The notes beneath the pieces were generated by a model. That model had not been told where the DNA came from and did no database searches. It saw only the letters and a list, made by a program, of their open reading frames with translations. Below are positions 1,661-38,546 of a stretch of DNA of 42,651 bases, one piece after another; the first letter of the stretch is position 1, and every line of letters begins with the position of its first letter. This DNA is from Bacteroidales bacterium. GTDB lineage: Bacteria; Bacteroidota; Bacteroidia; Bacteroidales; P3. Both the position numbers and the translations under genes were made by a program. Where the stretch lies: the NCBI GenBank assembly GCA_017633985.1, contig JAGBOF010000015.1, forward strand, positions 1 through 42,651. Direction: 5' to 3'.

Positions 1661-1738
1661 CAGGCTGATTAATAAAATAATCAAGCTGATTATTTTACTG
1701 AAACGGCGTTTTAATTTCTTAAAACGCCGTCTTTTTGT
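1661..1738 (+). repeat. 21-bp-phased repeat array A, also a terminator
   Basis: Cores CAGGCTG (1661), CAAGCTG (1682), ACGGCGT (1703) and ACGCCGT (1724) lie exactly 21 bp apart, each followed by a 14-nt A/T-rich spacer. The last two cores form a perfect 12-bp hairpin (1703-1714 with 1719-1730, loop TTTC) followed by CTTTTTG, an intrinsic terminator for ribE. Member of the dispersed family also seen at 6463, 22464, 25978, 32149 and 38463. Confidence 0.85.
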
Positions 1739-1857
1739 TACGCATTGATTATCCGTCATATAGACATCGGTTTTTGCTCACATATAAACCCGCACAAATA
1801 ATACAACATTGCATTACAATTCCTCCTTTTTGCCCAACGGGACATTTTTGTCACTTA

Positions 1858-1886
1858 TTGAATTATGGGCAATAAGGCTAATTTTG
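1858..1886 (+). promoter_or_regulatory. Likely promoter of the RND pump operon
   Basis: TAATTTTG (1879-1886) matches the Bacteroidota -7 box; the -33 element is weak (TTG at 1858-1860). The longest open frame of the pump begins at 1865, upstream of this box, so the ATG at 1931 is chosen instead. The rest of 1739-1930 shows no other clear feature. Confidence 0.5.
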
Positions 1887-1930
1887 CGAATTTTGCAACC
1901 GAAAATCTTTTTAACTCAATATTACTTACA

Positions 1931-4900
1931 ATGAAGGTAACAAAATTTTTTATGAACCGGACCGTACTGTTCTGGTCTTTGATGATAGGGATTTTAATTG
2001 CGGGAGTGTTGGCTTTTGTTCAGATGCCTAAATTGGAAGACCCCGAGGTAACGATAAAGCAAGCAATGGTAGTCGTCCCTTATCCGGGTGCGACAACTCA
2101 CGAAGCAGAATTGAAGGTTGCAATTCCTATGGAGGATGCCCTAAGGACGCTTCCTAAGGTAACCAAGATTAAATCAGAATGTCAGAATGATATGGTTATG
2201 ATAACCGTTGAGTTTGATATGGCAGTGCCTTTGGATGAAATTGAGCAGTACTTTGATTTATTAAGACGCAAAGTTAATGACGTTAAAACAATATTGCCAC
2301 AAGAATGCTATGATCCTGTAGTGCTTGACGATATGATGGATGTCTATGGAATATTTTATGCATTGACAGGCGAAGGTTATGACTATACAGAATTGGAACA
2401 ATATGCCAAATACATAAGGCGGGAATTACTTACAGTCAAAGGTGTAAAACGTGTAACTATTGCAGGTACCAGAAGCGAGGTTATAGATATTATTATCCCA
2501 AAAGATAAGATTGCTTCCAACGGCATTATTCCTACTCAGATAATGATGTGTTTGAATTCCGCAGGTAAAGTAGTCAATGCAGGCAATTTGCAAATCGGTG
2601 ATACACGGTTAAAACTTATTGTCAGCGATGCAGTAAAGAATGAAGAAGATATAAGAAATCTGAAAATAAATACTACTGACGGTTCGGTAATACGCCTTGG
2701 CGATATAGCAAAAGTTAAACGTACTTACTCCGAACCGCAACGCAACGGATTTTTTGTACATGGTAAACCTGCACTTGCCGTTTGTGTTTCGCTGAATAAT
2801 GATGTTGTAGTTCCCGATGTAGGCAAGGATGTGGATAAGAAACTAAACGAAATAATGAAAAATGTTCCTGTCGGCATGCAGACGGAAAAGATTTTTTTCC
2901 AACCTGACAAGGTTTCCTCAGCTGTTAATTCCTTTATGATAAATTTGCTGGAATCCGTTTTGATTGTAATCCTTATTCTAATATTTACGATGGGTATCCG
3001 CAGCGGAGTAATAATCGGTTTCGGCTTATTGCTTACCATTGCCCTGTCTTTCCCAATTCTGCTGAATTTAGGTACAACGCTTCAAAGGATTTCACTTGGT
3101 GCTTTCATCGTTGCAATGGGTATGCTCGTGGATAATGCAATCGTTATTATGGACGGCATATTGGTTGATAAGAATAAAGGTTTTGCCCCAAAGAAATACC
3201 TCTACCGTATAGGCAAACAAACAGCTATGCCGTTATTGGGGGCAACCGTTATAGCGGCATCCACATTCATCGCAATATATATGTCACCGGGTACGGTAGG
3301 AGAATATGCGGGCGACTTGTTCTTGGTATTGTGTGTAAGTTTGCTCGCATCCTGGGTATTGGCATTGGTACAAGTGCCCGTGTGTGCGAAATCCTGGCTG
3401 CCGCCGCGTGCAGATAAGCGGATAAAGTCGACAGACAATCAGATGAACAGCAAACTGCACAGATTTTTCCGCCGTATCATCGCTTGGATGATAGACAATA
3501 AAACAATCGCTGTGACATGTGCGGTTATTGTTTTGGCAGTTTGCGGAGCGGGATTCACTAAAGTAAAGAATCTTTTCTTCCCTGATTTCGATTATAAACA
3601 GTTTATAGTGGAATATTCTCTGCCGTCGGGGACATCACCTGACAAAGTAAAGCAGGATTTGATAACAATATCACAGCAATTGGAGAAAAACAAAGACATA
3701 GAGCGCATTGCAGCTTCGCAGGGTTCCGCTCCCGCAAGATATTGTTTGGTAAGACCGATGACAAACGGCGGAGACAGTTATGGGGAATTTATTATTGATT
3801 GCAAGGATTATAAAACCGTTTGCAAGGTTATCCCTCAGGTTCGGCAGATGTTAAGAGAGAATTACCCCGATGCTTACATAAGAATACGCAAGTATAACTT
3901 CTCGGTAAGCACTTCCCATCCCGTTGAGGCGGAATTCTCGGGTGCCGACCCTGCGGTGTTGAAAGATTTGTGCGAAAAGGCACAGCAGATTATGAAACAA
4001 AGCCCTTACATTGACAAATACTCAGTTCAAAGTAATTGGAAGCCTATGGACAAAACTCTTGTTGCACAATATATCCAACAAGACGCACTCCGTAGCGGTA
4101 TTCAGCGTAATGATGTCGGCAATGCCTTACTTGCAGCCACTGACGGCACAACTGTAGGAGTTTTGAACGATAATGACAAACAGGTTTTGATAAATCTTAA
4201 ACTTGAAACCGCAAATTACAACGCCAATGACATAAAAAATATTCCTGTTTGGAGTACTCTGAACGTTAATATCAATAAAGAAGACATCTCAAAAGTGATG
4301 ACAGGAGCAAAAAGTGCAAGTCAAATCCAACAAGAAATGTTTTCATCTTCTCCGCTTAGCAATGTAATACAGGATTTACACCTTTCGTGGAACGAACCTG
4401 TCGTTTACAGAGTCAATGGTGTAAGAAGTATTGAAGCGGAGTGTGATTTCAATGCAGACAACAGTGACGCTACAGCAGCAAAAGCACTTGCCAGCGTACA
4501 GAAACAAATAGAGGATATTCCGTTACCTGAAGGCTATAAACTAAGGTGGGTAGGTGAGATAGAATTACAGTCAGATGCTATTATGGGACTTATGAAATAC
4601 GTTCCTCTTATGTTATTTCTTATACTTGGTGTATTACTTCTTTTGTTTAACTCTTGGAAACAAGTTTTTCTTATCTTTATTTGCTTCCCGTTTGTTATAT
4701 GCGGAATAGTTCCTTCTCTGCTTTTAACTGGACAGGCTTTCACTTTTATGGCTATAATAGGAGTTATGGGACTTATGGGTATGATGGTAAAGAACTCAAT
4801 AGTATTAATAGATGAAGTAAATAGGCTTATCAAAGAAGAAAAACTTGATTCTTACTCGGCAATAGTTAATGCTACTGTATCAAGGGTACGTCCTGTTATA

Positions 4901-5074
4901 ATGGCATCTGCAACCACTATTGTAGGTATGCTTCCGCTTCTGACAGATCCTATGTACTGCTCCATGGCTATAGTTATTATGGGAGGCTTAGCAGTAGGCA
5001 CGTTTATAACTCTTATTCTTCTGCCGACATTTTATAGTCTTTTTTATAGGGTGTCTAAAAAGGATTTGGTTTGA
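1931..5074 (+). CDS. RND-family efflux permease (AcrB/HAE-like)
   Basis: Inner-membrane proton-driven drug/solute exporter of the AcrB-like HAE group, 1047 residues from the chosen start. It begins MKVTKFFMNRTVLFWSLMIG, the typical first membrane helix, followed by a periplasmic porter domain, a central helix bundle (about 335-510), a second porter domain and a C-terminal bundle ending near the stop. The proton-relay segment in the fourth helix reads GMLVDNAIV: D401 is kept but the second Asp of AcrB is Asn, as in many HAE relatives. The partner Lys is K954 in MMVKNSIVLIDE. The next gene, 55 bp on, is its TolC partner. No membrane-fusion protein or TetR regulator is adjacent. Substrate unknown. 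Confidence 0.9.
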   Translation: MKVTKFFMNRTVLFWSLMIGILIAGVLAFVQMPKLEDPEVTIKQAMVVVPYPGATTHEAELKVAIPMEDALRTLPKVTKIKSECQNDMVMITVEFDMAVPLDEIEQYFDLLRRKVNDVKTILPQECYDPVVLDDMMDVYGIFYALTGEGYDYTELEQYAKYIRRELLTVKGVKRVTIAGTRSEVIDIIIPKDKIASNGIIPTQIMMCLNSAGKVVNAGNLQIGDTRLKLIVSDAVKNEEDIRNLKINTTDGSVIRLGDIAKVKRTYSEPQRNGFFVHGKPALAVCVSLNNDVVVPDVGKDVDKKLNEIMKNVPVGMQTEKIFFQPDKVSSAVNSFMINLLESVLIVILILIFTMGIRSGVIIGFGLLLTIALSFPILLNLGTTLQRISLGAFIVAMGMLVDNAIVIMDGILVDKNKGFAPKKYLYRIGKQTAMPLLGATVIAASTFIAIYMSPGTVGEYAGDLFLVLCVSLLASWVLALVQVPVCAKSWLPPRADKRIKSTDNQMNSKLHRFFRRIIAWMIDNKTIAVTCAVIVLAVCGAGFTKVKNLFFPDFDYKQFIVEYSLPSGTSPDKVKQDLITISQQLEKNKDIERIAASQGSAPARYCLVRPMTNGGDSYGEFIIDCKDYKTVCKVIPQVRQMLRENYPDAYIRIRKYNFSVSTSHPVEAEFSGADPAVLKDLCEKAQQIMKQSPYIDKYSVQSNWKPMDKTLVAQYIQQDALRSGIQRNDVGNALLAATDGTTVGVLNDNDKQVLINLKLETANYNANDIKNIPVWSTLNVNINKEDISKVMTGAKSASQIQQEMFSSSPLSNVIQDLHLSWNEPVVYRVNGVRSIEAECDFNADNSDATAAKALASVQKQIEDIPLPEGYKLRWVGEIELQSDAIMGLMKYVPLMLFLILGVLLLLFNSWKQVFLIFICFPFVICGIVPSLLLTGQAFTFMAIIGVMGLMGMMVKNSIVLIDEVNRLIKEEKLDSYSAIVNATVSRVRPVIMASATTIVGMLPLLTDPMYCSMAIVIMGGLAVGTFITLILLPTFYSLFYRVSKKDLV

Positions 5075-5129
5075 TGTTTTCAAAGTTCAATGTAATAATG
5101 GAATTGAATTATAAAATAGATTTATAAAG

Positions 5130-6443
5130 ATGAGAAACACAATCATAATATCATTAATGATTTTAATAACTTGTGCAAATAATACATTGGATGCACAAGA
5201 GGAAATAATACTTTCCTTAGATAAGTGCAGGCAGATGGCACTTGAAAACAGTGAGGATATAAAACAGTCTGACAATGCCGTACTTACGGCCAAATTATCT
5301 AAACAAGAGGCTTTTGCTTCTTATCTTCCAAAAATTGAAGGCTCATTTTCGGGTCTTTATATGACACCTGACATTGATGCAATGGGAATGAATTTGATTT
5401 TAAAGGGAGTTTATTTGGCAGGAATTTCATTACAACAACCTATTTATGCAGGAGGAAAAATTTATCAGGCAAATAAAATGGCTCAAATCGGTAAAGAATG
5501 TGCCGAAATCCAAAAAAAACAAATACGTAGTGAGATAATAACACAGGCAGATAACGCTTATTGGACTTATATAGCCGTTTTACAGAAAGTAAAGATGATG
5601 GAAACGTATTTAGATTACATTCAAACACTGTATGATAATGTTTCAGTAAGCGTTGATGCCCAAATGGCGACGCGTAATGACCTACTACGTATACAAACCA
5701 AGCAAAGCGAACTGCAATATAACTTACAAAAAGCACAAACAGGCAAAGAATTGTGCCGAATTGCCCTTTGCAATACAATAGGTGTTGATTTTGCTTCCGA
5801 GATTATACCGATAGATACAATAATAAGCGTAGATATTGAACGCAGTTATGATGTTACAATAGATTCTTTGCCTGAAATTTTGTTGATGCAGAAAAACATT
5901 GAAGTAAAACAACGGCAGCAGAAAATAGCTTTCGCAGATTATCTTCCGACAGTGGGAATAGGTGCAGGCTATTCTTATGCGGGCAACATAAAAACGGAAG
6001 GCACTACCGAATATGAAGGACAGACGGTACCGTTTTCGCAAACTTATAAACAGGGTCAAGGTTACGCTATGTTAAGTGTAAGTATCCCTATCTGGAATTG
6101 GGGTGCTACTTCGGCAAAGTATAAGAAAGCCAAAATAGAAACCGAAAATGCCGAATCGGAATTGGATAAAAACTCCAAACTGTTACAAATACGTGCAATA
6201 CAATCGCAGAAGAATCTTGAAAACTCGTATTCTATGATAACCACGGCTGACTTGGGAGTAAAACAAGCGGAAGAAAACCTGCGTATGATGCAGGATAAAT
6301 TTGACGCTTCGCTGTGTACGCTTACCGATTTGCTGGATGCCCAATCGCAATGGCAACAGGCACAAAGTAACCTCATAGAAGCCCAAACTCAATACATGAT
6401 TTACAAGACTGAACACCTAAAAAATACGGGCAGATTACAGTAA
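5130..6443 (+). CDS. TolC-family outer-membrane efflux protein
   Basis: Outer-membrane channel and periplasmic tunnel that completes an RND efflux complex, 437 residues. A signal peptide (MRNTIIISLMILITCANNTLDA) precedes two related halves of long amphipathic helices, with the typical opening LSLDKCRQMALENSEDIKQSD and the later repeat VKQAEENLRMMQDKFDASLCTLTDLLDAQ. The OEP signature is clear. It lies 55 bp after the permease on the same strand and is probably cotranscribed; both are bounded downstream by repeat array B. In most systems a membrane-fusion protein is encoded first, and it is absent here. Confidence 0.9.
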   Translation: MRNTIIISLMILITCANNTLDAQEEIILSLDKCRQMALENSEDIKQSDNAVLTAKLSKQEAFASYLPKIEGSFSGLYMTPDIDAMGMNLILKGVYLAGISLQQPIYAGGKIYQANKMAQIGKECAEIQKKQIRSEIITQADNAYWTYIAVLQKVKMMETYLDYIQTLYDNVSVSVDAQMATRNDLLRIQTKQSELQYNLQKAQTGKELCRIALCNTIGVDFASEIIPIDTIISVDIERSYDVTIDSLPEILLMQKNIEVKQRQQKIAFADYLPTVGIGAGYSYAGNIKTEGTTEYEGQTVPFSQTYKQGQGYAMLSVSIPIWNWGATSAKYKKAKIETENAESELDKNSKLLQIRAIQSQKNLENSYSMITTADLGVKQAEENLRMMQDKFDASLCTLTDLLDAQSQWQQAQSNLIEAQTQYMIYKTEHLKNTGRLQ

Positions 6444-6462
6444 GAATATCAGCATATTACAA

Positions 6463-6567
6463 AAGGCAAAAATAAAACGCCGTTTCAGTAAATTATTCTG
6501 CGTGATTAATAAATTATTCTGCGATAAAAATTTATTAAAACGGCGTTTTAATATTTTTTTACGCCGT
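6463..6567. repeat. 21-bp-phased repeat array B between convergent genes
   Basis: Read on the minus strand, cores ACGGCGT (6567), ACGCCGT (6546), ATCGCAG (6525), CACGCAG (6504) and ACGGCGT (6483) start exactly 21 bp apart. The inverted ACGGCGT/ACGCCGT pair at 6540-6567 can form a hairpin with a T-run and probably terminates transcription between tolC (+) and the flavoprotein gene (-), whose stop is only 2 bp away. Confidence 0.85.
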
Positions 6568-6568
6568 C

Positions 6569-7198
6569 TTATTTTCCTGTCATGAAATCCGTATAAACTG
6601 TCGGCTCGTATTCGGGTCTTGTGATGCCGTTTTGTTTGCCCGATTCAATAAGTTTTAGCAAATATGACATATTCTGACCAAGCGTTCTCATTGTCTGCAA
6701 ACCCTCTTTGTCCTTTCTTACGTCGTCAGGTGTGTATCCGTGAACGCTGTTCCAGTATTGCGAAGACACAATAGGCATATTGGATATGGTAAAATATTGA
6801 TTCAATTGCTCAAATGTAGCACTTGCTCCTCCCCTGCGGCAACTTACAACTGCACAACCGGGTTTCCCTTGCATCATTGCCTGAAATCCGCCGAAGAATA
6901 AGCGATCCAAAAACGATATTATCTGACCTGTCGGTCCCGAATAATAGACAGGTGAGCCTACAATCAGTCCGTCAAACTCCGCAGCACGTTTTTGCAGCTC
7001 CTGAACTGCATCCTGTTGAAAACAATGTCCGTGTTCTTTGCAATAAAAACATGCTATACAACCTGCAACCGGCTTTTTACCCAAATAAACCCACTCCGTT
7101 TCAATATTATTTGCGTTTAAAACTCCTTCAATCTCCTTTAAAGCCGTATAAGTGCAGCCTTCTTTGTTCGGAGATCCGTTAATAATCAATACTTTCAT
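6569..7198 (-). CDS. NADPH-dependent FMN reductase / flavodoxin-fold protein
   Basis: A 209-residue flavodoxin-fold oxidoreductase. The N-terminus MKVLIINGSPNKEGCTYTAL contains the FMN phosphate-binding loop GSPNKEGCT, and GSPVYYSGPTGQIISFLDR is the second flavin-contacting segment typical of the family. Between them a cysteine cluster, GCIACFYCKEHGHC (about residues 46-59), resembles iron-sulfur flavoprotein relatives, although here it may only hold structural cysteines. The gene is monocistronic, divergent from the lipoprotein at 7342, with its own promoter box. The physiological substrate cannot be told from sequence. Confidence 0.85.
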   Translation of the reverse strand: MKVLIINGSPNKEGCTYTALKEIEGVLNANNIETEWVYLGKKPVAGCIACFYCKEHGHCFQQDAVQELQKRAAEFDGLIVGSPVYYSGPTGQIISFLDRLFFGGFQAMMQGKPGCAVVSCRRGGASATFEQLNQYFTISNMPIVSSQYWNSVHGYTPDDVRKDKEGLQTMRTLGQNMSYLLKLIESGKQNGITRPEYEPTVYTDFMTGK

Positions 7199-7233
7199 TA
7201 TATTGTTCCTTAAAATAGTTATGTTTCAATATG

Positions 7234-7241
7234 CAAAGGTA
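7234..7241 (-). promoter_or_regulatory. -7 box of the FMN reductase gene
   Basis: TACCTTTG on the minus strand, 36 bp upstream of the start codon; no convincing -33 partner. Confidence 0.5.
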
Positions 7242-7329
7242 GTAATATTTAAGTAAATAACTGTCCGTCCGATACCTTATACAATACAGATTCCATAATT
7301 TTGGTAGAAATGTCTTTAAGATTTTGTAT

Positions 7330-7337
7330 TAACTTTG
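7330..7337 (+). promoter_or_regulatory. -7 box of the small lipoprotein gene
   Basis: TAACTTTG ends only 4 nt before the ATG at 7342, so a transcript from this box would have almost no leader. Confidence 0.5.
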
Positions 7338-7341
7338 CATA

Positions 7342-7794
7342 ATGAAACAATATGTTTTTATTTTGTTGAGTTGCATCAATTTTATTGCATGTTCCCAAAA
7401 CAAAACGTTTAATAATGCGGACAATATGACGGATAAAGAGATTATTTTGCAGAACTATAAAGATATGTACTCGTATATGATTGCCAAAGACACGGTTAAT
7501 TTGGGCAAGTTGATGAGCGATAATTTCGTTTTGATACATATGACGGGTATGAAGCAGGATAAACAGACTTATTTGCGTTGTATTGCCGACGGAACGCTTA
7601 ACTATTACAGTGCCGAGCATGAAAATCTTGATGTTTCAATAAACGCCGACAGTGCAGTCCTAACAGGACAAAGCAAAGTAACGGCTGCCGTTTTCGGCGG
7701 CGGAAGACATACTTGGAATTTGCAATTAAGGTTTTGGCTTATCAAACAAGACGGCATTTGGTTGCAATACAAATCCCAAGCATCAACCTATTAA
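7342..7794 (+). CDS. Lipoprotein with NTF2/SnoaL-like (DUF4440-type) domain
   Basis: A 150-residue exported protein. Residues 1-16 form a lipoprotein signal ending in FIAC, so Cys17 or so would be lipidated. The remainder resembles the NTF2-like cone fold of DUF4440 proteins: a first helix (EIILQNYKDMYSYMIAKD), then LGKLMSDNFVLIHMTGMKQDKQTYL, and C-terminal strands ending WNLQLRFWLIKQDGIWLQYKSQASTY. Related proteins bind small molecules or are of unknown function; no catalytic residues can be assigned. The lipobox fixes the start at 7342 in spite of its closeness to the promoter. Confidence 0.7.
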   Translation: MKQYVFILLSCINFIACSQNKTFNNADNMTDKEIILQNYKDMYSYMIAKDTVNLGKLMSDNFVLIHMTGMKQDKQTYLRCIADGTLNYYSAEHENLDVSINADSAVLTGQSKVTAAVFGGGRHTWNLQLRFWLIKQDGIWLQYKSQASTY

Positions 7795-7821
7795 AACAAT
7801 AACTCCCCGCCACTAATTACC

Positions 7822-7917
7822 AAACTGCAATACTTCCCAAGTTTTTTCATTCCAAAGTGCAATACTTTCCGCAAATTTTGTCTGCAAACTGCGATACTTT
7901 TCAAGTTTTTTCTCTTA
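7822..7917. repeat. Left 32-bp tandem array beside the ATPase gene (3 units)
   Basis: Three contiguous 32-bp units start at 7822, 7854 and 7886, alternating between an A type (AAACTGCRATACTT, then CAAGTTTTTT) and a B type (AAAGTGCAATACTTTCC, then CAAATTTTGT). There are no unique spacers, so this is not CRISPR. The same units recur on the other side of the ATPase gene. Confidence 0.9.
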
Positions 7918-7931
7918 ATAAAGGCATAATA

Positions 7932-9206
7932 TTAAATATTATCTTGCAAAAACCACCTCTCGGCGTTGACAATTTTGATTTTATGTCCGTTAAGTTCAAC
8001 TTCCGAGGCTTTATCCATAGTTATAAGCAACAAATTTTCGCAATGATACTTTTCAGCTCCCTTTATAAGTGCATTTATTTCTCTGTTATAAGTCTTTTTC
8101 GAAGAAAGTGACCAGCTAACTTGAATTAAATGTTCAACATGTCCCGATTGAGTCAAAAGAAAATCAATCTCAAATCTGTCTTTTGCGTAAAAAATGTCCA
8201 AAGATAACGGATTACAACGGCGAAGTAGTTCAATATAGACCGCATTTTCCAATCTCCAACCCCAATTCTCTGCAGAAAAACTGTCCTGCCGCTGTGCAAC
8301 GAATGCTAAATCCACAACGTAGGTTTTTTCATTATATATACGCTCACGGCTTTTGAAAGAAAATTTTTTCAGTCCCAAAAGCAAATACGCCTCTTTCAGA
8401 TACGAGTAATAATTTTCGGCGGTATGGGACGAACCAAAGGAAAAAATATCTTTAAGAGTGTTGATAACAACCTCTTGAGAGAAATTATTTATCAGATGAT
8501 TCGCCATATTGTTAAGAGATTCGGTATAACGGATTTTAAATCTCTGCGAAATATCTTTTTTTATGATAGAGTTTAAAAGACTCATAACATACTTGCGTTG
8601 ATTTGTCACATTAAGCGTTTCAGGTAAGCCGCCGTAAGTAAGATATTCGTTAAAAGTTTTGGTAAGTAAGGCTTCAGCTTTGGTAGTTCGACTTTCAGTG
8701 TCTGTATTTTTCACATAACAGTATTCTGCAAAGGAAAAAGGAAAAAGAACTATCTCATTATATCGTCCTGTTAAGAAGGTACTCAATTCTCCGCTTAAAA
8801 GTTTGGCGTTCGATCCCGTTATAAACAAATGAATCTTCTGACGTAGTAAGCGGTTTATAAAAAGATGCCACTGAGGTATGTTTTGAATTTCATCAAAAAA
8901 CATATAATCGGTATCCCCGTATACAATATAAGCCGCTTCCAACAAGACATTCAAATCTTCTCTCGTTAGGGAAGATAATCTTTCGTCATCAAAGTTTATA
9001 TATATGAAATTAATACCTTTTTGTTTCAAAACTTTAATGCATAATGTAGATTTACCGCAACGTCTCACCCCTATAACAATTTGAGCTAAAGAGCTGTCAA
9101 ATTCAATTTGTTCCTCCTCTCTACGGGTGCAATACTTGTTTATATCTATTGCCTCTATTTCTGACTTTTGATCAGATAATATTTTTACAAAATCTTCTTT
9201 TTGCAT
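7932..9206 (-). CDS. AAA-type ATPase with C-terminal DUF4143 domain
   Basis: A 424-residue ATP-binding protein of the AAA_14/DUF4143 class, common and often multi-copy in Bacteroidota. Walker A is GVRRCGKST (residues 46-54), Walker B is YMFFDEIQN (101-109), and the sensor segment FITGSNAKLL follows at about 128-137. The C-terminal half (about 200-424) is DUF4143-like, with FEIDFLL and LIQVSW resembling a degenerate PD-(D/E)xK nuclease-type core. Its biological role is not established. It is sandwiched between two arrays of the same 32-bp repeat, suggesting movement or duplication as a cassette. The start at 9206 lies just downstream of a -7 box. Confidence 0.85.
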   Translation of the reverse strand: MQKEDFVKILSDQKSEIEAIDINKYCTRREEEQIEFDSSLAQIVIGVRRCGKSTLCIKVLKQKGINFIYINFDDERLSSLTREDLNVLLEAAYIVYGDTDYMFFDEIQNIPQWHLFINRLLRQKIHLFITGSNAKLLSGELSTFLTGRYNEIVLFPFSFAEYCYVKNTDTESRTTKAEALLTKTFNEYLTYGGLPETLNVTNQRKYVMSLLNSIIKKDISQRFKIRYTESLNNMANHLINNFSQEVVINTLKDIFSFGSSHTAENYYSYLKEAYLLLGLKKFSFKSRERIYNEKTYVVDLAFVAQRQDSFSAENWGWRLENAVYIELLRRCNPLSLDIFYAKDRFEIDFLLTQSGHVEHLIQVSWSLSSKKTYNREINALIKGAEKYHCENLLLITMDKASEVELNGHKIKIVNAERWFLQDNI

Positions 9207-9226
9207 AATCTTATTGATTTTGAATG

Positions 9227-9234
9227 CAAAATTA
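9227..9234 (-). promoter_or_regulatory. -7 box of the ATPase gene
   Basis: TAATTTTG on the minus strand 20 bp upstream of the start; the right-hand repeat array begins 18 bp further upstream, where the -33 region would lie. Confidence 0.45.
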
Positions 9235-9251
9235 TGAAAATTTATCTAAAT

Positions 9252-9379
9252 AAACTGCAATACTTTTCAAGTTTTTTCATTTCAAAGTGCAATACTTTCC
9301 ATAAATTTTATCCGTAAACTGCGATACTTTTCAAGTTTTTCCTCTCCAAAGTGCAATACTTTCCGCAAATCTTGTATCC
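9252..9379. repeat. Right 32-bp tandem array beside the ATPase gene (4 units)
   Basis: Four contiguous 32-bp units start at 9252, 9284, 9316 and 9348 in the order A-B-A-B, nearly identical to the left array at 7822-7917 and in the same orientation. The array ends 5 bp before the stop of the acyltransferase gene. Confidence 0.9.
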
Positions 9380-9384
9380 TTTTC

Positions 9385-10482
9385 TTATCTGCCGCCAGTT
9401 ATTATTGCTGTAAATTTCGGAAACCGTTTTTTCAAGAAATTATATACCCATACCGAAATAACGGCAATTAGAGGCACGGAAAGCAAATATATAATAAAGA
9501 AAGTAAAATCATTATGCGACAGAACCATTGCAGGTAATTTGTTGAGAATTTGACTTAACGGTAACGGATGTACTGCAAACAAAAAGAAAGAAGCATTAGC
9601 CAGTTGTTTATTTACATTTTTCAGTTTACCAACTCTAAAACACTCCGAAATAATACTCAACACAGTAGCTATACCTAATAATATAAATACATTATGTACA
9701 TAAATGTTATTTGTTACTACATGAACTGTTGTTGCAGGTTGTTCATTCAGTAGTAAATCTGCAATCATAAATACGCCAGTCAGCAAATACAACGGATATT
9801 TAGGCAACCTTGCTATATCCTTAATTATATTTCTGCCGTTGATACTGAAAAACGCTCCCAAGGAAAAGAAAAATACGGCAACTTTAGAAAACGGAAATAA
9901 TTCTAGCGGAGACATCCATAAAACTAAAAGAAGTAATAACGTCAGCAACTTACCTTTCTTTAAAAGAAAATAAAGTATCGGAGAAATAATGCACACAATC
10001 ATCAAATCCCTTATGAACCAAAATTGAAATGCTATCGTAGCATTAGTTCCTTTATAGTAACAAAATGCTGATAATACCTGTATGGGCGACATCCAAGTGT
10101 GTCTAACGAACAGGTAACCCGCAAAATATATGCACAAGACTACAAAATTCCAGAATAAATAGGGAATTAACAGGGTGCGGATACGTTTTTTGAGTTTTAA
10201 AATATAGATTTCCTTGTTGAAAATGCACTCTTGAGAGTTTTTGTTATAGAAAAAGTAATAGCCACTTATAATAAAGAACAAAGGAACCGCTAATCTGGCT
10301 AAAATCTGTGTAATAAGAAAGAAAATGCTGTGTGCTGCAACTGACGGATGCATATCTATAAGAACTTGTTGATGCACATGAATAAAACAAACCGCTATCA
10401 TAAGCGGGAAACGCAGCCAATCCATCGTTTTGGATTGTAGGTCATCATAATTGATAACCGAAAGATTTTTGTCTTTTGTCAT
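9385..10482 (-). CDS. Membrane acyltransferase (acyltransferase_3 / OafA-like)
   Basis: A 365-residue polytopic membrane protein of the acyltransferase-3 family, which transfers acyl groups onto sugars or other surface molecules. The family opening is visible: an N-terminal DWLRFPLMIAVCFIHVHQQV with the conserved R and H, then VPLFFIISGYYFF in the third helix, and an internal FWFIRDLMIV segment. About ten hydrophobic helices follow, and it ends in a basic tail. The length is normal for the stand-alone transmembrane form. It appears to be a single-gene unit. A near-perfect 30-bp palindrome lies four bases upstream of the start. Acceptor substrate unknown. Confidence 0.85.
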   Translation of the reverse strand: MTKDKNLSVINYDDLQSKTMDWLRFPLMIAVCFIHVHQQVLIDMHPSVAAHSIFFLITQILARLAVPLFFIISGYYFFYNKNSQECIFNKEIYILKLKKRIRTLLIPYLFWNFVVLCIYFAGYLFVRHTWMSPIQVLSAFCYYKGTNATIAFQFWFIRDLMIVCIISPILYFLLKKGKLLTLLLLLVLWMSPLELFPFSKVAVFFFSLGAFFSINGRNIIKDIARLPKYPLYLLTGVFMIADLLLNEQPATTVHVVTNNIYVHNVFILLGIATVLSIISECFRVGKLKNVNKQLANASFFLFAVHPLPLSQILNKLPAMVLSHNDFTFFIIYLLSVPLIAVISVWVYNFLKKRFPKFTAIITGGR

Positions 10483-10486
10483 TTTT

Positions 10487-10516
10487 GATTGATAATTTTT
10501 GCAAAAACTATCAATC
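10487..10516. promoter_or_regulatory. 30-bp palindrome upstream of the acyltransferase
   Basis: GATTGATA (10487-10494) and TATCAATC (10509-10516) flank the inner palindrome TTTTTGCAAAAA, with one mismatched pair. It could be an operator or a leader hairpin of the minus-strand gene that starts at 10482. Confidence 0.6.
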
Positions 10517-10558
10517 GTTTATGAAATGACTAAAATAAATAAGGTGTTTAACTTCTCT

Positions 10559-10729
10559 ATTCGTGTTCAGGTAAAGCCTCGGAGAATACCCATCCTCTAA
10601 TAGATTAATTTAACACCATTAAAGTGTTAAAATGTAATAAAGAGGATTATAATAAACCTTATACTTTATCCTGAACTGCTATTTCATTCTTCTAAAATAA
10701 GTTTCCGAGGCTTATTTCGAACACGAAAT
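10559..10729. repeat. Folded inverted-repeat element (MITE-like or structured RNA)
   Basis: Outer arms ATTCGTGTTC (10559-10568) and GAACACGAAAT (10719-10729), second arms GCCTCGGA (10576-10583) and TCCGAGGC (10704-10711), a third pair CCTCT/AGAGG (10594-10598, 10641-10645) and an inner hairpin TTAACAC/GTGTTAA (10610-10616, 10624-10630). The interval between the acyltransferase and the SDR gene (10483-10914) holds this element, the 30-bp palindrome and a promoter box, but no credible gene. Confidence 0.65.
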
Positions 10730-10872
10730 AATAGTTATTGCTTGTTATGTTGCACTATTGCATTAATTTGTTTTGCAAAAGTACGAATATTTTCCGTATA
10801 TGCAATTGAATAAACTGCGAAAATTGTAAAAGAAAGGTGAATTTTGGTAAACAATATTTTGTTTTTATATTG

Positions 10873-10880
10873 TAATTTTG
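10873..10880 (+). promoter_or_regulatory. -7 box of the SDR-flavodoxin-acetyltransferase operon
   Basis: TAATTTTG, 34 bp before the SDR start codon; no -33 box at the usual spacing. Confidence 0.5.
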
Positions 10881-10914
10881 CAAAAACAGAATTTCAATAA
10901 CACTTATCACAAAT

Positions 10915-11751
10915 ATGAATAAAGAAGTTGTTGTATTAAGCGGTGCAGGCAGCATAGGCATTGCTATTGTCAGAAGAATAAGTACGGGAAAGCATATCGT
11001 CATTGCGGATTACAGTGAAAAAAGTCTTGATAATGCAAAAATCACATTGGAACAAGCAGGTTTTGAAGTATCAACTTTGAAATTTGATTTGTCCTCACGG
11101 CAGTCTATAAAGGAGCTTGTGGAGTTTGCGACCTCTAAAGGTGAAGTTAAATATGTTATTAATGCAGCGGGAGTCTCCCCTTCGCAAGCCCCGATAGAGA
11201 AGATATTGCAGGTAGATATGTACGGAACGGCGGTATTTATGGAAGAATTCGGCAAAGTCATATCAAACGGCGGTTCAGGTGTGATAATATCTTCGCAAAG
11301 CGGTCACAGATTGGGAACGATTCCGCAAGAGGACAGCGACTTATTGGCAACTACTGATACGGAATCACTTTTAAATTTGCCGATTGTTAAGAATATTGCC
11401 GATACATTGAAAGCCTACCAATACTCCAAGCGTTGTAATGTTTTGAAAGTTATGTTTGAGGCTACCCGTTGGGCAAAACGCGGTGCTACTATCAATTCTA
11501 TATCTCCCGGAATCATAATTACGCCGCTTGCAGCCGATGAATTGAAAGGTCCGAGGGGTGCAGGTTACCGCAAAATGATAGAGGCCTCACCTGCAATGCG
11601 TGCAGGAACTCCCGATGAGGTAGGAGATTTGGCACAATTCCTAATGTCCGATAAGGGACGCTTTATTACGGGAGCGGATTTCTTGATTGACGGCGGCACA
11701 ACGGCATCGTATTTCTACGGAGACTTACAATACCTTAAGCAAACGCATTAA
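10915..11751 (+). CDS. Short-chain dehydrogenase/reductase (SDR) family oxidoreductase
   Basis: A 278-residue NAD(P)-dependent SDR enzyme with a Rossmann fold. The cofactor-binding loop is GAGSIGIAI (about residues 10-18), a variant of the usual TGxxxGxG in which the first Gly-rich turn is GAG. NAAG follows at about 83-86, catalytic Ser in SSQSG (about 124-128), and the active-site YxxxK is YQYSK. SPGIIITPL and the C-terminal TGADFLIDGG are classical SDR segments. It leads an apparent operon with a flavodoxin-like lipoprotein (33 bp gap) and two acetyltransferases. Its substrate cannot be assigned. Confidence 0.9.
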   Translation: MNKEVVVLSGAGSIGIAIVRRISTGKHIVIADYSEKSLDNAKITLEQAGFEVSTLKFDLSSRQSIKELVEFATSKGEVKYVINAAGVSPSQAPIEKILQVDMYGTAVFMEEFGKVISNGGSGVIISSQSGHRLGTIPQEDSDLLATTDTESLLNLPIVKNIADTLKAYQYSKRCNVLKVMFEATRWAKRGATINSISPGIIITPLAADELKGPRGAGYRKMIEASPAMRAGTPDEVGDLAQFLMSDKGRFITGADFLIDGGTTASYFYGDLQYLKQTH

Positions 11752-11784
11752 CAGAATAGTAACATCCAATATAAATCAAACAAA

Positions 11785-12441
11785 ATGAAGAAAAGAGTAA
11801 GCTTATTAGGTATTTTATCAGCATTGTTTTGCTTTTCGTGTTCGCAGGGCAATGCAAAGAGTGAAATAAACAGCGACGAAAATAAAATAAACAGCGATAT
11901 GAATAAAATAATCACGCAGATTAATACGGCAAAAGATAAAGTCCTTGTCGTTTATTTCTCACAAGCAGGAGAACAATACTCGGTAGGAGTAATCAAAGAG
12001 GGAAACACCAAGATTGTTGCAGATTATATCTGCAATTACATCGGATGCGACCGCTTCGAAATCAAGGCAGAAAAAAATTACAACATGTCTTACAACGACC
12101 TTATCAAGGTTGCAAAAGAAGAAGCTAACAAAGGCGAACTCCCTGCGTTTAAAGGCAAAATAGAAAACATCGATCAGTACAGTACCGTGTTTATCGGCGG
12201 TCCTGTTTGGTGGGGTACCTATCCGCAGGTAATGTTTACATTCTTTAAAGAATATGACTTAAACGGCAAGACGATAATTCCGTTTACTACCCACGAGGGC
12301 AGCGGTCTTGCCTCATGTGTTGAAGACGTCAAAGAAGCTTATCCGAATGCCAATGTGTTAAACGGTTTTTCTATGTACGGGCACGATGTCCGCACGGGTG
12401 AGAAAAAAGTCATTGATTGGCTGAAAGGCTTAGGTTTCTAA
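11785..12441 (+). CDS. Flavodoxin-domain lipoprotein
   Basis: A 218-residue protein with a lipoprotein signal (MKKRVSLLGILSALFCFSC), a short Asn/Lys/Asp-rich linker (about 24-48) in which NSDENKINSDMNKI is an imperfect repeat, and then a flavodoxin_4-type domain starting VLVVYFSQAGEQYS. GGPVWWGTYPQVM and PFTTHEGSG are the isoalloxazine-contacting loops of that family. It is predicted to bind FMN on the periplasmic side of the envelope. It follows the SDR gene by 33 bp and precedes two acetyltransferases. Export of a flavodoxin-like domain is known in Bacteroidota, but the partner here is unknown. Confidence 0.85.
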   Translation: MKKRVSLLGILSALFCFSCSQGNAKSEINSDENKINSDMNKIITQINTAKDKVLVVYFSQAGEQYSVGVIKEGNTKIVADYICNYIGCDRFEIKAEKNYNMSYNDLIKVAKEEANKGELPAFKGKIENIDQYSTVFIGGPVWWGTYPQVMFTFFKEYDLNGKTIIPFTTHEGSGLASCVEDVKEAYPNANVLNGFSMYGHDVRTGEKKVIDWLKGLGF

Positions 12442-12475
12442 AGGTTTGCAACCTATATTTAAGGTTTTAAATACA

Positions 12476-12507
12476 GTACTGATAGTTTATAATCAAGCTA
12501 TCAGTAC
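12476..12507 (+). promoter_or_regulatory. Hairpin between flavodoxin and acetyltransferase genes
   Basis: Ten-bp inverted repeat GTACTGATAG (12476-12485) and CTATCAGTAC (12498-12507) with a 12-nt loop, 17 nt before the next start codon. No T-run follows, so it is more likely a processing or attenuation element, or an operator, than a terminator. Confidence 0.5.
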
Positions 12508-12524
12508 ACAAAAAGTACAGAGAT

Positions 12525-13058: not shown

Positions 13059-13070
13059 AACTACAATGAT

Positions 13071-13598: not shown

Positions 13599-13639
13599 TC
13601 AGTAGTTTTTGAACTCAAGGCTGGGTGCTGTATGTTATG

Positions 13640-13675
13640 TTAAAGGTTTAAAGTCATAAAACTTTAAACCTTTAA
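13640..13675. terminator. Bidirectional terminator after the acetyltransferase operon
   Basis: A 15-bp perfect stem (TTAAAGGTTTAAAGT at 13640-13654 with ACTTTAAACCTTTAA at 13661-13675) and a 6-nt loop, flanked by A/T runs. It lies between the plus-strand acetyltransferases and the convergent J-domain operon. Confidence 0.8.
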
Positions 13676-14402: not shown

Positions 14403-14405
14403 AGG

Positions 14406-16558: not shown

Positions 16559-16578
16559 ATCTCACCTTTCTTTAATAG

Positions 16579-20828: not shown

Positions 20829-23800
20829 CTACCTAACAACCGTAAATTTTGCTGTTTTTTTATTGTTTTTTGCATCGGTAACCACAATTTTCATCTCATT
20901 TTTGCCTTTTTTCAATTTTTCATCAATATTATAAATCAACGTCGCACGTCTGCCGTCAAATTCAAGTAAAACCCATTCACCGTTCAAGTACCCGTTGTAA
21001 GTATCCACACCCGACAAATTATCTGATACCGAAAACTTTAAAGTCTTTTGATTTTTATGGATAATCTTATTCTCTTTAAAATTCGAAGGCTTGACATTAG
21101 GTGCAATCGTATCAATCCATACGGCGAAATTGCCGAAATCTCCCGTCACCGTCTCCACAAAACCGTTTTTCAATTCTCCGCCTACGCTTTTCTTACCACC
21201 TTTGGAATTTATCTTAACCACCAAATATTTGTCCTTCAGCGTATTGTCCGTCTTATAAGGCTTTATCCTGACGGTAAACTTCTTTTTTACGGGCTCGGTA
21301 ACCGTATGCAATCTGTGCACATCCGAATACGTACCTTTTGATGAAGAATATTTAAAATCTATATCCTCATACAATGAGTTTTTAGGAAAAACAAACTGGC
21401 TGCCGTCTTTTGCCGTAAAATTATTTTCCTGATTATAACGGAAATATTGCTGACCTTCCCTTGTATATGTACGGCTATATGCTGCAGAATCAAAAACGCC
21501 TTTAATATAATAAGTATACGTCATACTGTTGTCACTCAAATCCGTCAGTTTCCACTGTATCTTATAAACGCTGTCAGGCTTTACGTTCAAAATTCCTTTA
21601 TTCCTGTATTTATTAAACGGCAACAAACCATTATCCTTCTGCCTGGAGCAAAGCATACGTTTATTGGTCTTAATATAAAGCGGATAATTGATTGTAGCAT
21701 CCACGAATCCGTAATCGGTGAAAGAGAATTTTTCTATATGATGCGAAAATATCAGCACACTGTCGGCAAATAATTCCGTCTTCCACACTCCGTTACGCAT
21801 CGAAGAACGCATTGACGGGTCGTATGCCAAAACGGAAAAATATATATTGCCGTAACACTCAATAGTATCGCCCTGCTTGAAATCACTGTTTTTATTTATC
21901 CCGATTATCTTATCTGCAGGCTTACCCTCTACGGAAGAATTTTTCATAGGCGACAAAGCCATGGAAACTATATAAGGTTCAACCGTGTCTTTTATGTTTA
22001 TCCCGAAAAGTATCGGATTAATAGGTTGTTCGGTTTTGCTGTCCCTTATCTCAAAATGCAGATGCGGCCCCTGCACCATTCCCGTTTCTCCGCTTATTGC
22101 AATGGTATCGCCTTGTTTGACATAGATTTGCGGAGTTTTGAAGTAGTAATCAAAAGTATAGCATTTGTTTCGGTATTGATAACTTTTGACAAACTCCCCT
22201 ATCTTCCCGCTATAAGAATCCAAATGCATATAAACCGTCGTATAACCGTTAGGATGAGTGATATACAGGTTCTTTCCACCGCCGTAAGCCTGTATCTTAA
22301 TACGGGATACATATCCGTCGGCAGGAGCAATAACGGCATAACCCGTTCTTTCATTGGTTCTTATATCCAAACCAGAATGAAAATGCGAACCTCTTAATTC
22401 GGCAAACGTACCTGCCAAAGTCAAAGGTATTTTTAACGGAGATATAAAATAGTTCTGCGGATATTGCTTAAAATAAGACGCCGTTTTATTAAATTCTTCT
22501 GCGATATCATTTTCCTCAAACGCCGTATTATTTTCCTGTTGCGCCTTCGAATTGCAGGCGAAAAGAGACAAAATAACCGCAAACAAACAAGATAACTTTT
22601 TAACCGTTGATTTCATCTGCCATTTATCTGATTTAAAGATTACAATATAAATAACCACTCCCGTAAGCCATGCAACCGGTGCTCCCAACCATATACCCAA
22701 TGTTCCGTAATGTAAACTCAAAACATAGGATACCGGCCAGCGCACAATCCACAGCGAAAGTATACTTATCACCATGGTTACCGTTGCTTTGCCCGCACCT
22801 CTGAAAAACGCCGTATACATCATCTGCCAACAAAACAAAAACCAAAATATGCCCGATACTGCCAAATAGCCGTTGCCTATATTGATAACCTCTTTGTTGT
22901 CGGTAAACAGTTTCATCAAAAAAGTATTGCCAAAGGTAAATATCAGCAACGTTATAGCCGAAAGGCAAGCCATTATCTTCAACGATGAATAAAATCCACG
23001 TTTGGCTCTTTGCATTTGACCAGCTCCGACGTTCATTCCCACAAAGGAAGTCAATGCCTGCGAAATATTAAGCACGAACAAAAGGGCTATGGATTCTATT
23101 CTCATGGCAGAGGAATAAGCCGCCGTAGCATTGGTTCCGAAGCGCACGACAAGCGAAAGTATAAGAATTTGTGTTAATGACACTACGCTTTGTTGCACAC
23201 CCGTCGGTATGCCGATAGACACTATTTGTTTGAGATACTGTCGGTTAAACTTCAAGTTCTTATACGGCAGATGCACAAAATCATGACGCCAATGCAGATA
23301 TATGAAAAAACTTACAAAAGCCAGAAATTGGGATATAAGACTTGCAACTGCGGAAGCTTCCACGCCCAGGTGCATAACCCCGATAAAGATATACGAGAGG
23401 ATCATATTAAGGATATTGGCGGGGATAAGGAAATACAACTGCGTAACCGAATCACCCAACCCCCTTAACATACTTACCGCCGAGTGAAACAAGACCGAAA
23501 AAAACATTCCCAGCATATATATGCGGAAATATTCCACGGCAAGGTTCTTGACACCTTCTTCCATATTGAGGAACGAAAATATAAAATCGGCGGACAATAT
23601 GCTTAATCCGCAAACTGCAATACCCAATGCAATAAAGAATATATAAAACGTAGAAATTACCGTATGGATTTGATCGTATTGTTTGGCACCGAAATAATGG
23701 GACACGACCACCGATCCGCCTGAACCTATACCCAACACCATAGAGGTTATGAAAAACACAACAGGATAGCAACTGCCTACAGCCGCCAATGCATCCACCG

Positions 23801-25921: not shown

Positions 25922-26308
25922 TTATCTGCCAAACTTGTCGGCAAACTCCCTGCAATTGCGGTAACTGTCGGCAAAGGACGGCGTTTTGTAAAAATTTAAC
26001 GGCGTTTTAATATTTTTTAACGGCGTTTCAGTAAATTTTGACGGCGTAAAAATATTTTTTAACGGCGTTAAATTTTTGCTGTAATTCTGCGGTCGTAAAA
26101 AATTGTAACTGAATCGGTTATTTTGGAAGAACTCCCTCGGCGGAAGATGGTATCCGCATGAATTTTTATGGTCGCACATTCCGACCGTCTCGTCGATAAT
26201 TTCCTGTGTATCAACGTCTATGTACGGTGTGAAGCAGTGATGCCTGCCGCATGACGGACATGTCAATTTGCTTTCAATGCCGTTATATTTCCTCAAAATG
26301 TATTTCAT
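25922..26308 (-). CDS. Zinc-ribbon protein, N-terminal part of a PG0870/DUF6371-like family
   Basis: A 128-residue protein. Residues 1-62 resemble the N-terminal zinc ribbon of PG0870/DUF6371-type proteins found in Bacteroidota mobile elements, with TCPSCGRHHCF (C17, C20) and MCDHKNSCGYH (C45, C51). The expected toprim-like C-terminal part is absent. Instead residues 81-113 are five seven-residue steps, each beginning Thr-Pro, encoded by a 21-bp tandem repeat; after them only 15 residues remain. It is best read as a truncated relic or a rebuilt short gene, and the family call is by motif memory. Confidence 0.65.
   Translation of the reverse strand: MKYILRKYNGIESKLTCPSCGRHHCFTPYIDVDTQEIIDETVGMCDHKNSCGYHLPPREFFQNNRFSYNFLRPQNYSKNLTPLKNIFTPSKFTETPLKNIKTPLNFYKTPSFADSYRNCREFADKFGR
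25978..26082. repeat. 21-bp-phased repeat array C, in frame within the zinc-ribbon gene
   Basis: On the plus strand ACGGCGT cores start at 25978, 25999, 26020, 26041 and 26062, exactly 21 bp apart, with A/T-rich spacers. On the coding strand each unit gives a Thr-Pro heptad. This is the most regular member of the dispersed family. Confidence 0.92.
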
Positions 26309-32148: not shown

Positions 32149-32232
32149 ACGGCGTTATTTAAAAATAATACGGCGTTTTAAAAAATTAATCACGCTGATT
32201 ATTTTAACGAAAAGGCGTTTTATTTTAGGGTT
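32149..32232. repeat. 21-bp-phased repeat array D upstream of the permease
   Basis: On the plus strand cores ACGGCGT (32149), ACGGCGT (32170), CACGCTG (32191) and AAGGCGT (32212) start exactly 21 bp apart. Sits between the divergent M16 and permease genes; 31941-32123 otherwise shows no feature. Confidence 0.85.
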
Positions 32233-37921: not shown

Positions 37922-38263
37922 TTACGCTTTAAGGCTGTCCATAATAGCGTCTGCAGACTTCTTGTCTACATTTTCATATATCTTTGATTGTCCGTCAGGC
38001 ATTACCACTTCAACAACCACAGGTTGGTTGTTACCTTCTGCAATAACTCCCGTCTGTGTGATAACTGCCTTAATCTGCCGTTCATCCGTTTTTTCAATCA
38101 TGTAATCAAAGATTTCTTTTGCGCCGGCTGATATTCCAGATGTCGCCATCGCAATTCTGATTTGCGATAAACTTTTATCAAAAGCCTCAACACGTGTTTT
38201 CATTGTTGCATATACACGCTCTTTTACTGCCTGCAAATCAGCTAATGTTTTGATTTGTGCCAT
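37922..38263 (-). CDS. Cys-less homologue of a thioredoxin-like [2Fe-2S] hydrogenase subunit
   Basis: A 113-residue protein and the first gene of the hydrogenase operon. Its order of elements (LADLQAVKERVY, MATSGISAGAKEIFDY, AVITQTGVIAEGN, PVVVEVVMPDG, KKSADAIMDS) follows the small thioredoxin-like ferredoxins found with NAD-linked hydrogenases. In those proteins the corresponding segments carry the cluster cysteines; here they read S, S and V/A, and the whole protein contains no cysteine. It therefore cannot bind that [2Fe-2S] cluster and may be structural or regulatory. A TAAATTTG box (38325-38332, minus) lies upstream. Confidence 0.75.
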   Translation of the reverse strand: MAQIKTLADLQAVKERVYATMKTRVEAFDKSLSQIRIAMATSGISAGAKEIFDYMIEKTDERQIKAVITQTGVIAEGNNQPVVVEVVMPDGQSKIYENVDKKSADAIMDSLKA

Positions 38264-38324
38264 ATAAGTCAGTATTAATTTTGTTATATCTATGTTCCTT
38301 TAATTTTCTTTACAATTCAATGTG

Positions 38325-38332
38325 CAAATTTA
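38325..38332 (-). promoter_or_regulatory. -7 box of the hydrogenase operon
   Basis: TAAATTTG on the minus strand 61 bp upstream of the first start codon; no obvious -33 box. Confidence 0.45.
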
Positions 38333-38462
38333 GCAATTATTTTTCATATCTGTATAAAATATCCCATATTTTTTATAAAAAAATAACTGCGCATGCAATT
38401 TTATCACCGTAAAGACGGATATAAAATCCCCGAAACAATATCAAATTACCTTCGAATTACAC

Positions 38463-38546
38463 ACCGATGAAAAAAGACGCCGTTTTACGAAATTAATCTG
38501 CGTGATTAATAAAATAAAACGCCGTAAAAATTTCGTAAAACGGCGT
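38463..38546. repeat. 21-bp-phased repeat array E
   Basis: On the minus strand cores ACGCCGT (38546), ACGGCGT (38525), CACGCAG (38504) and ACGGCGT (38483) start exactly 21 bp apart. The array lies between the DUF5723 stop and the hydrogenase promoter; its inverted cores could form a hairpin. The rest of 38333-38618 shows no other feature. Confidence 0.85.

Follow-up and report, generated by a model that had tools for sequence, protein, structure and literature searches.

The 42,651-nucleotide stretch of Bacteroidales DNA analyzed here (the window; contig C14 of a 36-contig genome, totalling 2,390,692 bases, of an uncultured gut bacterium) carries seven short arrays in which GC-containing dyad cores recur every 21 bp, that is, every two turns of the helix. 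The reading we favor, to which we assign a probability of roughly 45%, is that the arrays are dispersed non-coding elements resembling miniature inverted-repeat transposable elements (MITEs) or repetitive extragenic palindromic (REP) sequences, the working part of which is a short row of dyads two helical turns apart; in view of their dispersal and lineage-specific presence, an element of this type appears the likeliest host of a dyad-bound assembly. The conserved feature is geometry, namely two helix turns and commonly three or four units, and the letters change between close relatives. Moreover, two families of the two-turn build coexist in one genome, and the presence in related species of families with the same build and other letters suggests a type of dispersed repeat that has not been described before.

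An initial annotation, made from the sequence alone, had described a strict 21-bp phase, and this is borne out by three lines of analysis. Firstly, the 46 occurrences of 16 core words in the window yield 20 pairs at a distance of 21 and 13 at 42, with a single pair at 29, one at 39 and otherwise none in the 10-44 range, while in 100 dinucleotide shuffles of the window the number of pairs at 21 averages 0.04 and never exceeds 1. Secondly, a search of the whole genome, the check that the initial annotation had proposed, found the spacing to be far commoner than others and the arrays to be plentiful outside the window: the pattern ACGSCGT-N1..31-ACGSCGT has 168 matches per strand as compared with 10 for a reversed-pattern control, and by our own count the start-to-start spacing is exactly 21 bp in 46 of 50 forward places among the matches listed. 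A sample consisting of 397 kb from three long contigs plus the window (439,651 bases, approximately 440 kb) contains 155 core pairs spaced by 21 bp and 107 spaced by 42 bp, as compared with 0-3 pairs for any other distance between 8 and 44, including only two at 20 bp and one at 22 bp; the three contigs were known to be long from the genome-wide core search, and their choice was not blind to matches, while the 32 core words counted were compiled from the surroundings of ACGSCGT, such that the list is partly self-selected. Profiles of G+C content centered on the sample's 178 ACGSCGT cores show peaks at intervals of approximately 21 bp in both directions, up to three units away. Thirdly, Tandem Repeats Finder (TRF), which uses no motif, recovers in the same sample 49 arrays of at least two copies with a period of 21 and 18 with a period of 22, compared with at most five for each other period from 14 to 41, nine at 42 and 9-20 at each period from 10 to 13 bp; the period-21 set also holds ordinary coding repeats, as 16 of 47 GC-type arrays lie inside genes. 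The core-word and TRF scans replaced composition-only period scans, which were not informative, as chance favors short periods, and no reliance is placed on a four-unit GC-phase detector, the hits of which spread over 20, 21 and 22 bp (62, 55 and 35 in the genome studied here) because it tolerates slop.

Among the 55 arrays of the family in the sample, 29 have four units, ten have three and eight have five, the remainder having two (six arrays), six (one) or eight (one); the element is roughly 90-150 bp long, and extrapolation from these 55 arrays suggests about 300 copies in the genome. Inspection of the core list shows that almost every core fits nnnGCnn when read in one orientation. Core halves are paired non-randomly, as in ACG with ACG (97 of 212, expected 51.5), CAC with CTG (27, expected 4.4), ATC with CTG (25, expected 6.9) and ATC with CAG (22, expected 5.1), and dyad symmetry exceeds that of shuffled pairings only at positions 2-4 from the center. 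At the outer ends, the first core is preceded by AAAATAA and the last is followed by the mirror of this sequence, with a G at -11 and a weak TTACA. Between similar arrays (29 pairs at least 80% identical, which are not mutually independent), the mismatch rate is 0.41 at the core center, 0.04-0.12 in the rest of the core and 0.17 in the spacers; thus the half-sites are the kept part and the core center varies freely. Cores are inverted in place in 28 of 108 comparisons, a figure in which inversion between ACGGCGT and ACGCCGT is indistinguishable from a single change at the center. The 157 spacers, 99 of them distinct in sequence, differ pairwise at a mean of 4.63 of 14 positions, with their length kept. 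We therefore read the combination of kept half-sites and drifting spacers of fixed length as double-stranded recognition at a fixed distance.

In addition to their internal order, the arrays show signs of copying and of lineage-specific presence. The initial annotation held that cores are mixed and reused as modules rather than copied as one unit; the mosaic of mixed cores is confirmed, but whole arrays are copied as well, as 16 of 49 belong to clusters sharing 85% identity or more across 60 bp or more. Each of the 31 alignments with 80% identity or above is in register at multiples of 21, and the left flanks of the six best array pairs appear, by eye, unrelated. In one relative (G016; here G-numbers denote compared genomes, G000 being the genome under study, with contigs labeled C1, C2a and C6 and stretches L046, L050 and so on), a multi-copy element contains a 21-bp array within approximately 400 bp of homology over eight aligned copies, a ninth, which the motif did not find, being left out of the alignment. 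One copy is longer by exactly 21 bp, or one unit, and one spacer is found in both orientations.

For comparison between species, a site was taken as comparable if both flanking genes were matched adjacently in a relative with a gap below 1,500 bases, using one genome per species. The 21-bp arrays differ in a relative at all four comparable sites: that at C6:12191 is empty in G013, that at C6:60032 (the gap between what we name ybeY and mnmG) is empty in both G008 and G013, that at C1:5404 is empty in G004, and that at C6:254944 has four units here and a single core in G013. The flanking proteins at these sites are 63-92% identical and too diverged for junctions to be visible. Four further sites (C6:25264, C6:107317, C1:42356 and C1:94753) failed the adjacency criterion and were not counted; the flanking genes of C6:111738 and C6:173781 (after a RecA-like gene, by our naming) were not syntenic, no match was found in relatives for the gene at L046:10683, and only distant paralogues were found for the OEP gene of the window. 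Synteny on the 3' side of ribE is likewise broken; in G013 a four-unit 22-bp array belonging to another family, of the AAAAAACC(TGC/CAT)TTTTT type (L231 2190-2290), lies 3' of ribE, where the genome studied here has the window array at 1661. The RibE proteins of G008 and G013 are 95% identical to that of the genome studied here. Copies at different sites and differing occupancy together bear out the description of a dispersed, lineage-specific repeat.

The TRF arrays of period 22 led to the second family, hereafter the triads, each composed of three A7-NNN-T7 units flanked by mirrored GC-rich arms (consensus GCCGCCCCGTGGC). In the sample, 20 of 20 have exactly three units, the spacing between centers is 21.5-22.5 bp in 38 of 40 steps, the core triplets are mostly CCC, CAG, CTA and CAC in either orientation, and the arms, approximately 45 bp long, match each other at 15-26 of about 30 positions within each element. 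Triads are located at L046 10548-10608 (equal to C6 30548-30608), at C6 5157, 43525, 72311, 103758 and others, at C1 22065 and 52176, and at C2a 17873. The pair pattern of the triads has 261 matches in their own genome, 89 in G008 and 78 in G013, with none for the reversed control in all three; it has none in the other 11 relatives of the same genus, one or two in G022, G025 and G040, and 32 as compared with 37 for the control in the low-complexity genome G046. The triad family is thus abundant above control only in its own genome and in two close relatives, G008 and G013. The triad-like cores of G013 differ (CCAC, CCTA, CCTGC and others). Across 15 comparable intergenic regions without a 21-bp array, G013 and the genome studied here share triads in the same two regions and have none in the other 13, and the two shared sites carry different triplets. 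Unlike the 21-bp arrays, triads therefore seem to remain at the same sites as their letters change.

Presence of the two-turn build in relatives, which the initial annotation had proposed to check, is also confirmed. A TRF period of 21 or 22 is the commonest in the genome studied here and in five of six samples from the same family (G013, 138 arrays at 22 and 52 at 21; G004, 36 at 21; G034, 27 at 21; G008, 18 at 21 and 12 at 22; G001, 16 at 21), as compared with one array at 21 and one at 23 in two order-level controls (G055 and G057, 80 kb). The cores themselves vary: AAGGCTG/CAGCCTT at 21 bp in G034, ACCGTCC at 22 bp in G013 and G008, and CCCAACGSCGTTGGG at 22 bp in G014 and G025. Among G013 ACCGTC arrays of at least three units, 10 of 11 have four, and most are, by eye, bracketed by TTTTCWGAAAA dyads. 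In G034 and G004 the spacing of off-center hexamers and heptamers spreads over 19-22 bp, partly because the words are off-center, and the phase is resolved less sharply than in the genome studied here. The ACGSCGT pair pattern matches in 38 of 61 genomes, in many of which the reversed control is equally high; carriers well above control are G004, G006, G010, G016, G024 and G034, as well as G025 at 22 bp. In a scan of a genome collection, approximately 84 of 113 stretches were Bacteroidales by title among the matches listed (our own count), the pattern fixing the spacing at 21 bp and hence showing carriers rather than a distribution of spacings. A pool of 27 mixed non-Bacteroidales loci (215 kb) gave nine arrays of period 21, some of which are the same pairs that selected those loci, and none of period 22, with 27, 14 and 13 arrays at 12, 15 and 18 bp.

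Two observations on these genomes stand apart. A metagenome-assembled genome titled Bacteroidaceae (JAGAYH, RGIG8884; L119, L141, L190, L204, L223 and others) holds many CAGAAACGGCGTTTC hairpin pairs, each adjoining, by eye, a similar GAGGTC...TTCGG block; their 21-bp spacing was imposed by the search pattern, and the hairpin pair is perhaps a two-dyad relative of the arrays. Separately, G013:C4 and G013:C7 give equal scores and lengths for two queries and are probably a duplicated stretch in that assembly, for which 9% contamination is listed.

By our own simple gene calls, the 54 arrays that remain after merging comprise 28 between tandem genes, 12 between convergent and six between divergent genes, seven inside genes and one at an edge; the number inside genes is at least eight, because the gene caller missed the open reading frame (ORF) at 25922-26308, which has a Zn_ribbon_16 match. 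The sample contains 36 convergent intergenic regions of at least 60 bp. Of 52 neighboring gene 3' ends, 32 have an array no more than 51 bp away, as compared with none of 40 neighboring 5' ends. The in-gene arrays that were translated are all in frame and give 7-residue repeats. Such repeats occur in lipoprotein-like linkers at 11871 and 22478 of the window and in two further proteins named by us. One is a putative Lnt, in which both G013 and G010 are gapped at the repeats; the other is epimerase-like, and the corresponding segment of G013 is shorter and carries different repeats.

Under the MITE/REP-like reading, the kept geometry, free letters, preferred unit number and kept half-sites lead us to infer that each dyad may be bound by a protein dimer and that the row would assemble on one face of the helix. 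Such a protein-dyad complex might copy or move the element in trans, in the manner of a MITE or REP. The frequent in-place inversion of dyad centers could arise from hairpin (template-switch) events at near-palindromes, elements landing 3' of genes or in frame in flexible linkers would be tolerated, and some elements may serve as two-way terminators. The arrays are compatible with a putative binding array for a dimeric protein; a binding array for a repeat-type DNA-binding protein or a nucleoid protein was one of the roles that the initial annotation had offered. A broader proposal, which we offer tentatively and consider doubtful, is that they represent a new element class in a gut Bacteroidales family: rows of two-turn dyads in set number, with more than one family per genome, recognized by a fast-evolving DNA-binding assembly such that the letters change genome-wide in step between species, as in a 'DNA dialect', and the geometry is kept.

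Several results weigh against the MITE/REP-like reading. Any protein reading the dyads is putative, and the transposase family Y1_Tnp (PF01797), the only one searched for, was found in none of 13 genomes as compared with five of 14 control genomes. Inspection by eye of the array flanks and of the G016 alignment revealed no target-site duplication, the ends of the 21-bp arrays are weakly conserved outside the A-tract, and 33 of 49 arrays lack a close copy within the sample. Placement is also less uniform by other measures: the median distances of TRF arrays to 3' and 5' ends are 62.5 and 133.5 in G000, a weaker preference, and 148.5 and 175.5 in G013, and triads show no clear 3' preference (137 and 160 in G000). 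Unit number is not fixed everywhere, since only 29 of 49 triad-like clusters in G013 have three units. Triad arms outside triads were found only inside genes within the 440 kb searched of 2.39 Mb, and occupied triad sites with changed letters fit maintained function or concerted change better than hopping. Finally, 100 kb of G010 gave no TRF array of period 21-23, one array being found there by a 6-mer scan and ACGSCGT pairs elsewhere in that genome numbering eight as compared with none for the control.

The main rival to the MITE/REP-like reading is that the arrays are immobile sites maintained by the host for a chromosome-structuring or regulatory protein whose recognition dialect evolves fast. 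This we consider rather unlikely. The strict two-turn phase with kept half-sites would be expected of such sites, as would the agreement on triad presence or absence in 15 of 15 regions between G013 and the genome studied here, and the triad core sets differ among three species; however, the 21-bp arrays are not kept in place, since at all four comparable sites a relative has none or a single core, they occur inside protein-coding linkers, and whole arrays are copied to different loci.

A purely mutational origin, by which slippage and hairpin template-switching at near-palindromes multiply and flip units and the period of 21 is merely inherited, appears unlikely. Inverted cores (subject to the ACGGCGT/ACGCCGT ambiguity given above), the G016 spacer found in both orientations and the site with one unit in place of four all agree with such a process. 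Nevertheless, unrelated core families in several genomes share the 21-22 bp spacing, unit numbers are preferred, as in the 20 of 20 triads with three, and spacing indels are almost absent though approximately one third of spacer bases differ.

RNA-level function was assessed by folding. The initial annotation had listed modular terminators among possible roles, and some arrays could act as such: the hairpin at 1703-1730 of the window is terminator-like, 3' ends are close and 12 arrays lie at convergent gene pairs. Fold z-scores average -4.8 on both strands, with 44 and 42 of 49 arrays below -2, and of 31 pairs of adjacent ACGSCGT cores 21 are complementary; real arrays also fold slightly better than versions of them with cores redrawn from the common pool (mean z -0.53, 37 of 49 lower). 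Despite the strongly negative raw scores, an RNA hairpin as the selected feature is disfavored, because random flipping of the cores changes nothing (mean z -0.07, 28 of 49 lower), and we take fold strength as a by-product of the dyads. Over all cores, neighbors are less complementary than under random flips (3.80 as compared with 4.07 of 7), a fully complementary distal pair is no more frequent than a proximal one (13 as compared with 17 of 50), and a terminator scan of window positions 1-20,000 found one fitting array and no overall excess over shuffles; the core arrangement is not clearly tuned to hairpins. Six arrays also lie between divergent genes. Bidirectional intrinsic terminators or mRNA 3'-end hairpins are an unlikely account of the family.

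Two further suggestions find no support. The A/T tracts had been suggested to bend the DNA, perhaps; this is unsupported for the 21-bp family because AA/TT power at 10.5 bp is not raised (0.40 in arrays as compared with 0.58 in other intergenic DNA; at 21 bp, 2.19 as compared with 0.26). Exact array patterns matched 0, 2 and 0 stretches in IMG/VR, the two not having been examined, and these counts give a phage origin no support.

Bacterial repeats are usually explained as hairpins bound by a transposase (REP), transposon relics (MITE) or products of slippage. REP sequences, with their REPIN and bacterial interspersed mosaic element (BIME) forms and the associated REP-associated tyrosine transposase (RAYT, or TnpA-REP), are short, palindromic, high-copy, mostly extragenic and lineage-specific, and the arrays share each of these traits; they differ in being phased dyads at 21 bp with close to random core orientation, and the absence of Y1 from 13 genomes argues against RAYT/REP identity. 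The initial claim that the arrays are unlike REP or MITE elements is nonetheless unsupported, because whole-array copies, apparently mirrored ends and species-specific presence are all seen. Whole-copy dispersal together with presence or absence at orthologous sites, as in MITEs, was found for the 21-bp family and not for the triads, for which two of two sites are occupied. Rickettsia palindromic elements are repeats inserted in frame into protein-coding genes; the arrays resemble them in this respect and differ in that a 21-bp unit gives 7-codon repeats and most arrays are intergenic. 

A close parallel may be drawn with BrickBuilt, a minisatellite-containing MITE of Porphyromonas gingivalis with 23-nt units, a leader and a tail, present as 19 elements of 1 to 22.8 units, always intergenic and with up to 6% indels within elements (PMC4596501). 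The two share occurrence in Bacteroidales, dispersal, tandem units near two turns, intergenic location, variable unit number, the lack of an internal transposase and, apparently, inverted-repeat ends (PMC4596501). They are not the same element, as the units here are 21 or 22 bp with mixed, interchangeable dyad cores rather than copies of one 23-nt unit, number commonly three or four and in some cases lie in frame in genes. LIMP of Lobosphaera mitochondria are likewise lineage-specific repetitive palindromes with a central loop in either orientation, and the repeat units of the related HyLIMP match helix pitch according to the authors; LIMP differ in being organellar, with 5-nt units forming one long stem and no two-turn dyad arrays (PMC4524435). 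No description of two-turn dyad arrays in Bacteroidales was found in the literature searched, which does not prove that none has been published.

Should a protein assembly read the geometry, the arrays would represent a novel means by which DNA repeats spread or organize a chromosome. With arrays this short, numerous and species-specific, the binding partner could be looked for by a simple DNA pull-down. They also illustrate how repeats can add in-frame 7-residue units to protein linkers.

Within the window, all six loci of the initial annotation are present, three of them having been placed 14 bp early (6463, 22464 and 38463, correctly 6477, 22478 and 38477), a seventh at 11871 having been overlooked, and three (11871, 22478 and 25978) proving to be coding sequence. 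The array at 1661..1730 has four dyads (CAGGCTG, CAAGCTG, ACGGCGT, ACGCCGT; units at 1661, 1682, 1703 and 1724), starts 1 bp past the stop of a lumazine-binding (RibE-like) gene identified by Pfam, and its final two units double as the terminator-like hairpin noted above. That at 6477..6567 has five (ACGCCGT, CTGCGTG, CTGCGAT, ACGGCGT, ACGCCGT; 6477, 6498, 6519, 6540 and 6561) and separates convergent genes, the OEP gene (Pfam; + strand, ending at 6443) and a gene at 6569-7198 (- strand). Three dyads at 11871..11919 (CAGCGAC, CAGCGAT, CACGCAG; 11871, 11892 and 11913) lie in frame within a flavodoxin-like gene (Pfam Flavodoxin_4), in a stretch 3' of what by eye looks like a lipoprotein signal peptide. 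Three more at 22478..22526 (ACGCCGT, CTGCGAT, ACGCCGT; 22478, 22499 and 22520) are in frame upstream of an M23-peptidase domain (Pfam), directly past a stretch that by eye resembles a lipobox; the open frame here, 20829-23924 (- strand), fuses a MatE transporter and the M23-peptidase domain with the array in between, after an apparent second protein start with the lipobox. Five co-oriented ACGGCGT dyads at 25978..26068 (25978, 25999, 26020, 26041 and 26062) encode, in frame, 7-residue repeats starting TP in the C-terminal tail of ORF 25922-26308 (- strand), which carries the Zn_ribbon_16 domain (Pfam). The array at 32149..32218 (ACGGCGT, ACGGCGT, CACGCTG, AAGGCGT; 32149, 32170, 32191 and 32212) sits between divergent genes and is 88% identical over 69 bp to the inverted array L050:16940, and that at 38477..38546 (ACGCCGT, CTGCGTG, ACGCCGT, ACGGCGT; 38477, 38498, 38519 and 38540) lies 72 bp past the 3' end of a DUF5723 gene and is 93% identical over 90 bp to array L064:10973. 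Above the gathering score, Rfam matched only two tRNAs in the window and no array.

A separate phased repeat is also present in the window. An AAA_14/DUF4143 gene (7932-9206, - strand) is bracketed by direct copies at 7822-7915 and 9252-9380 that are 90% identical and consist of TGCRATACTT units exactly 32 bp, or three helical turns, apart, with three units on one side of the gene and four on the other. In the 440-kb sample, the spacings of this word up to 80 bp are 32 (five pairs) and 64 (three pairs) and no others. The gene and its flanking arrays are possibly a mobile cassette with three-turn phased ends.

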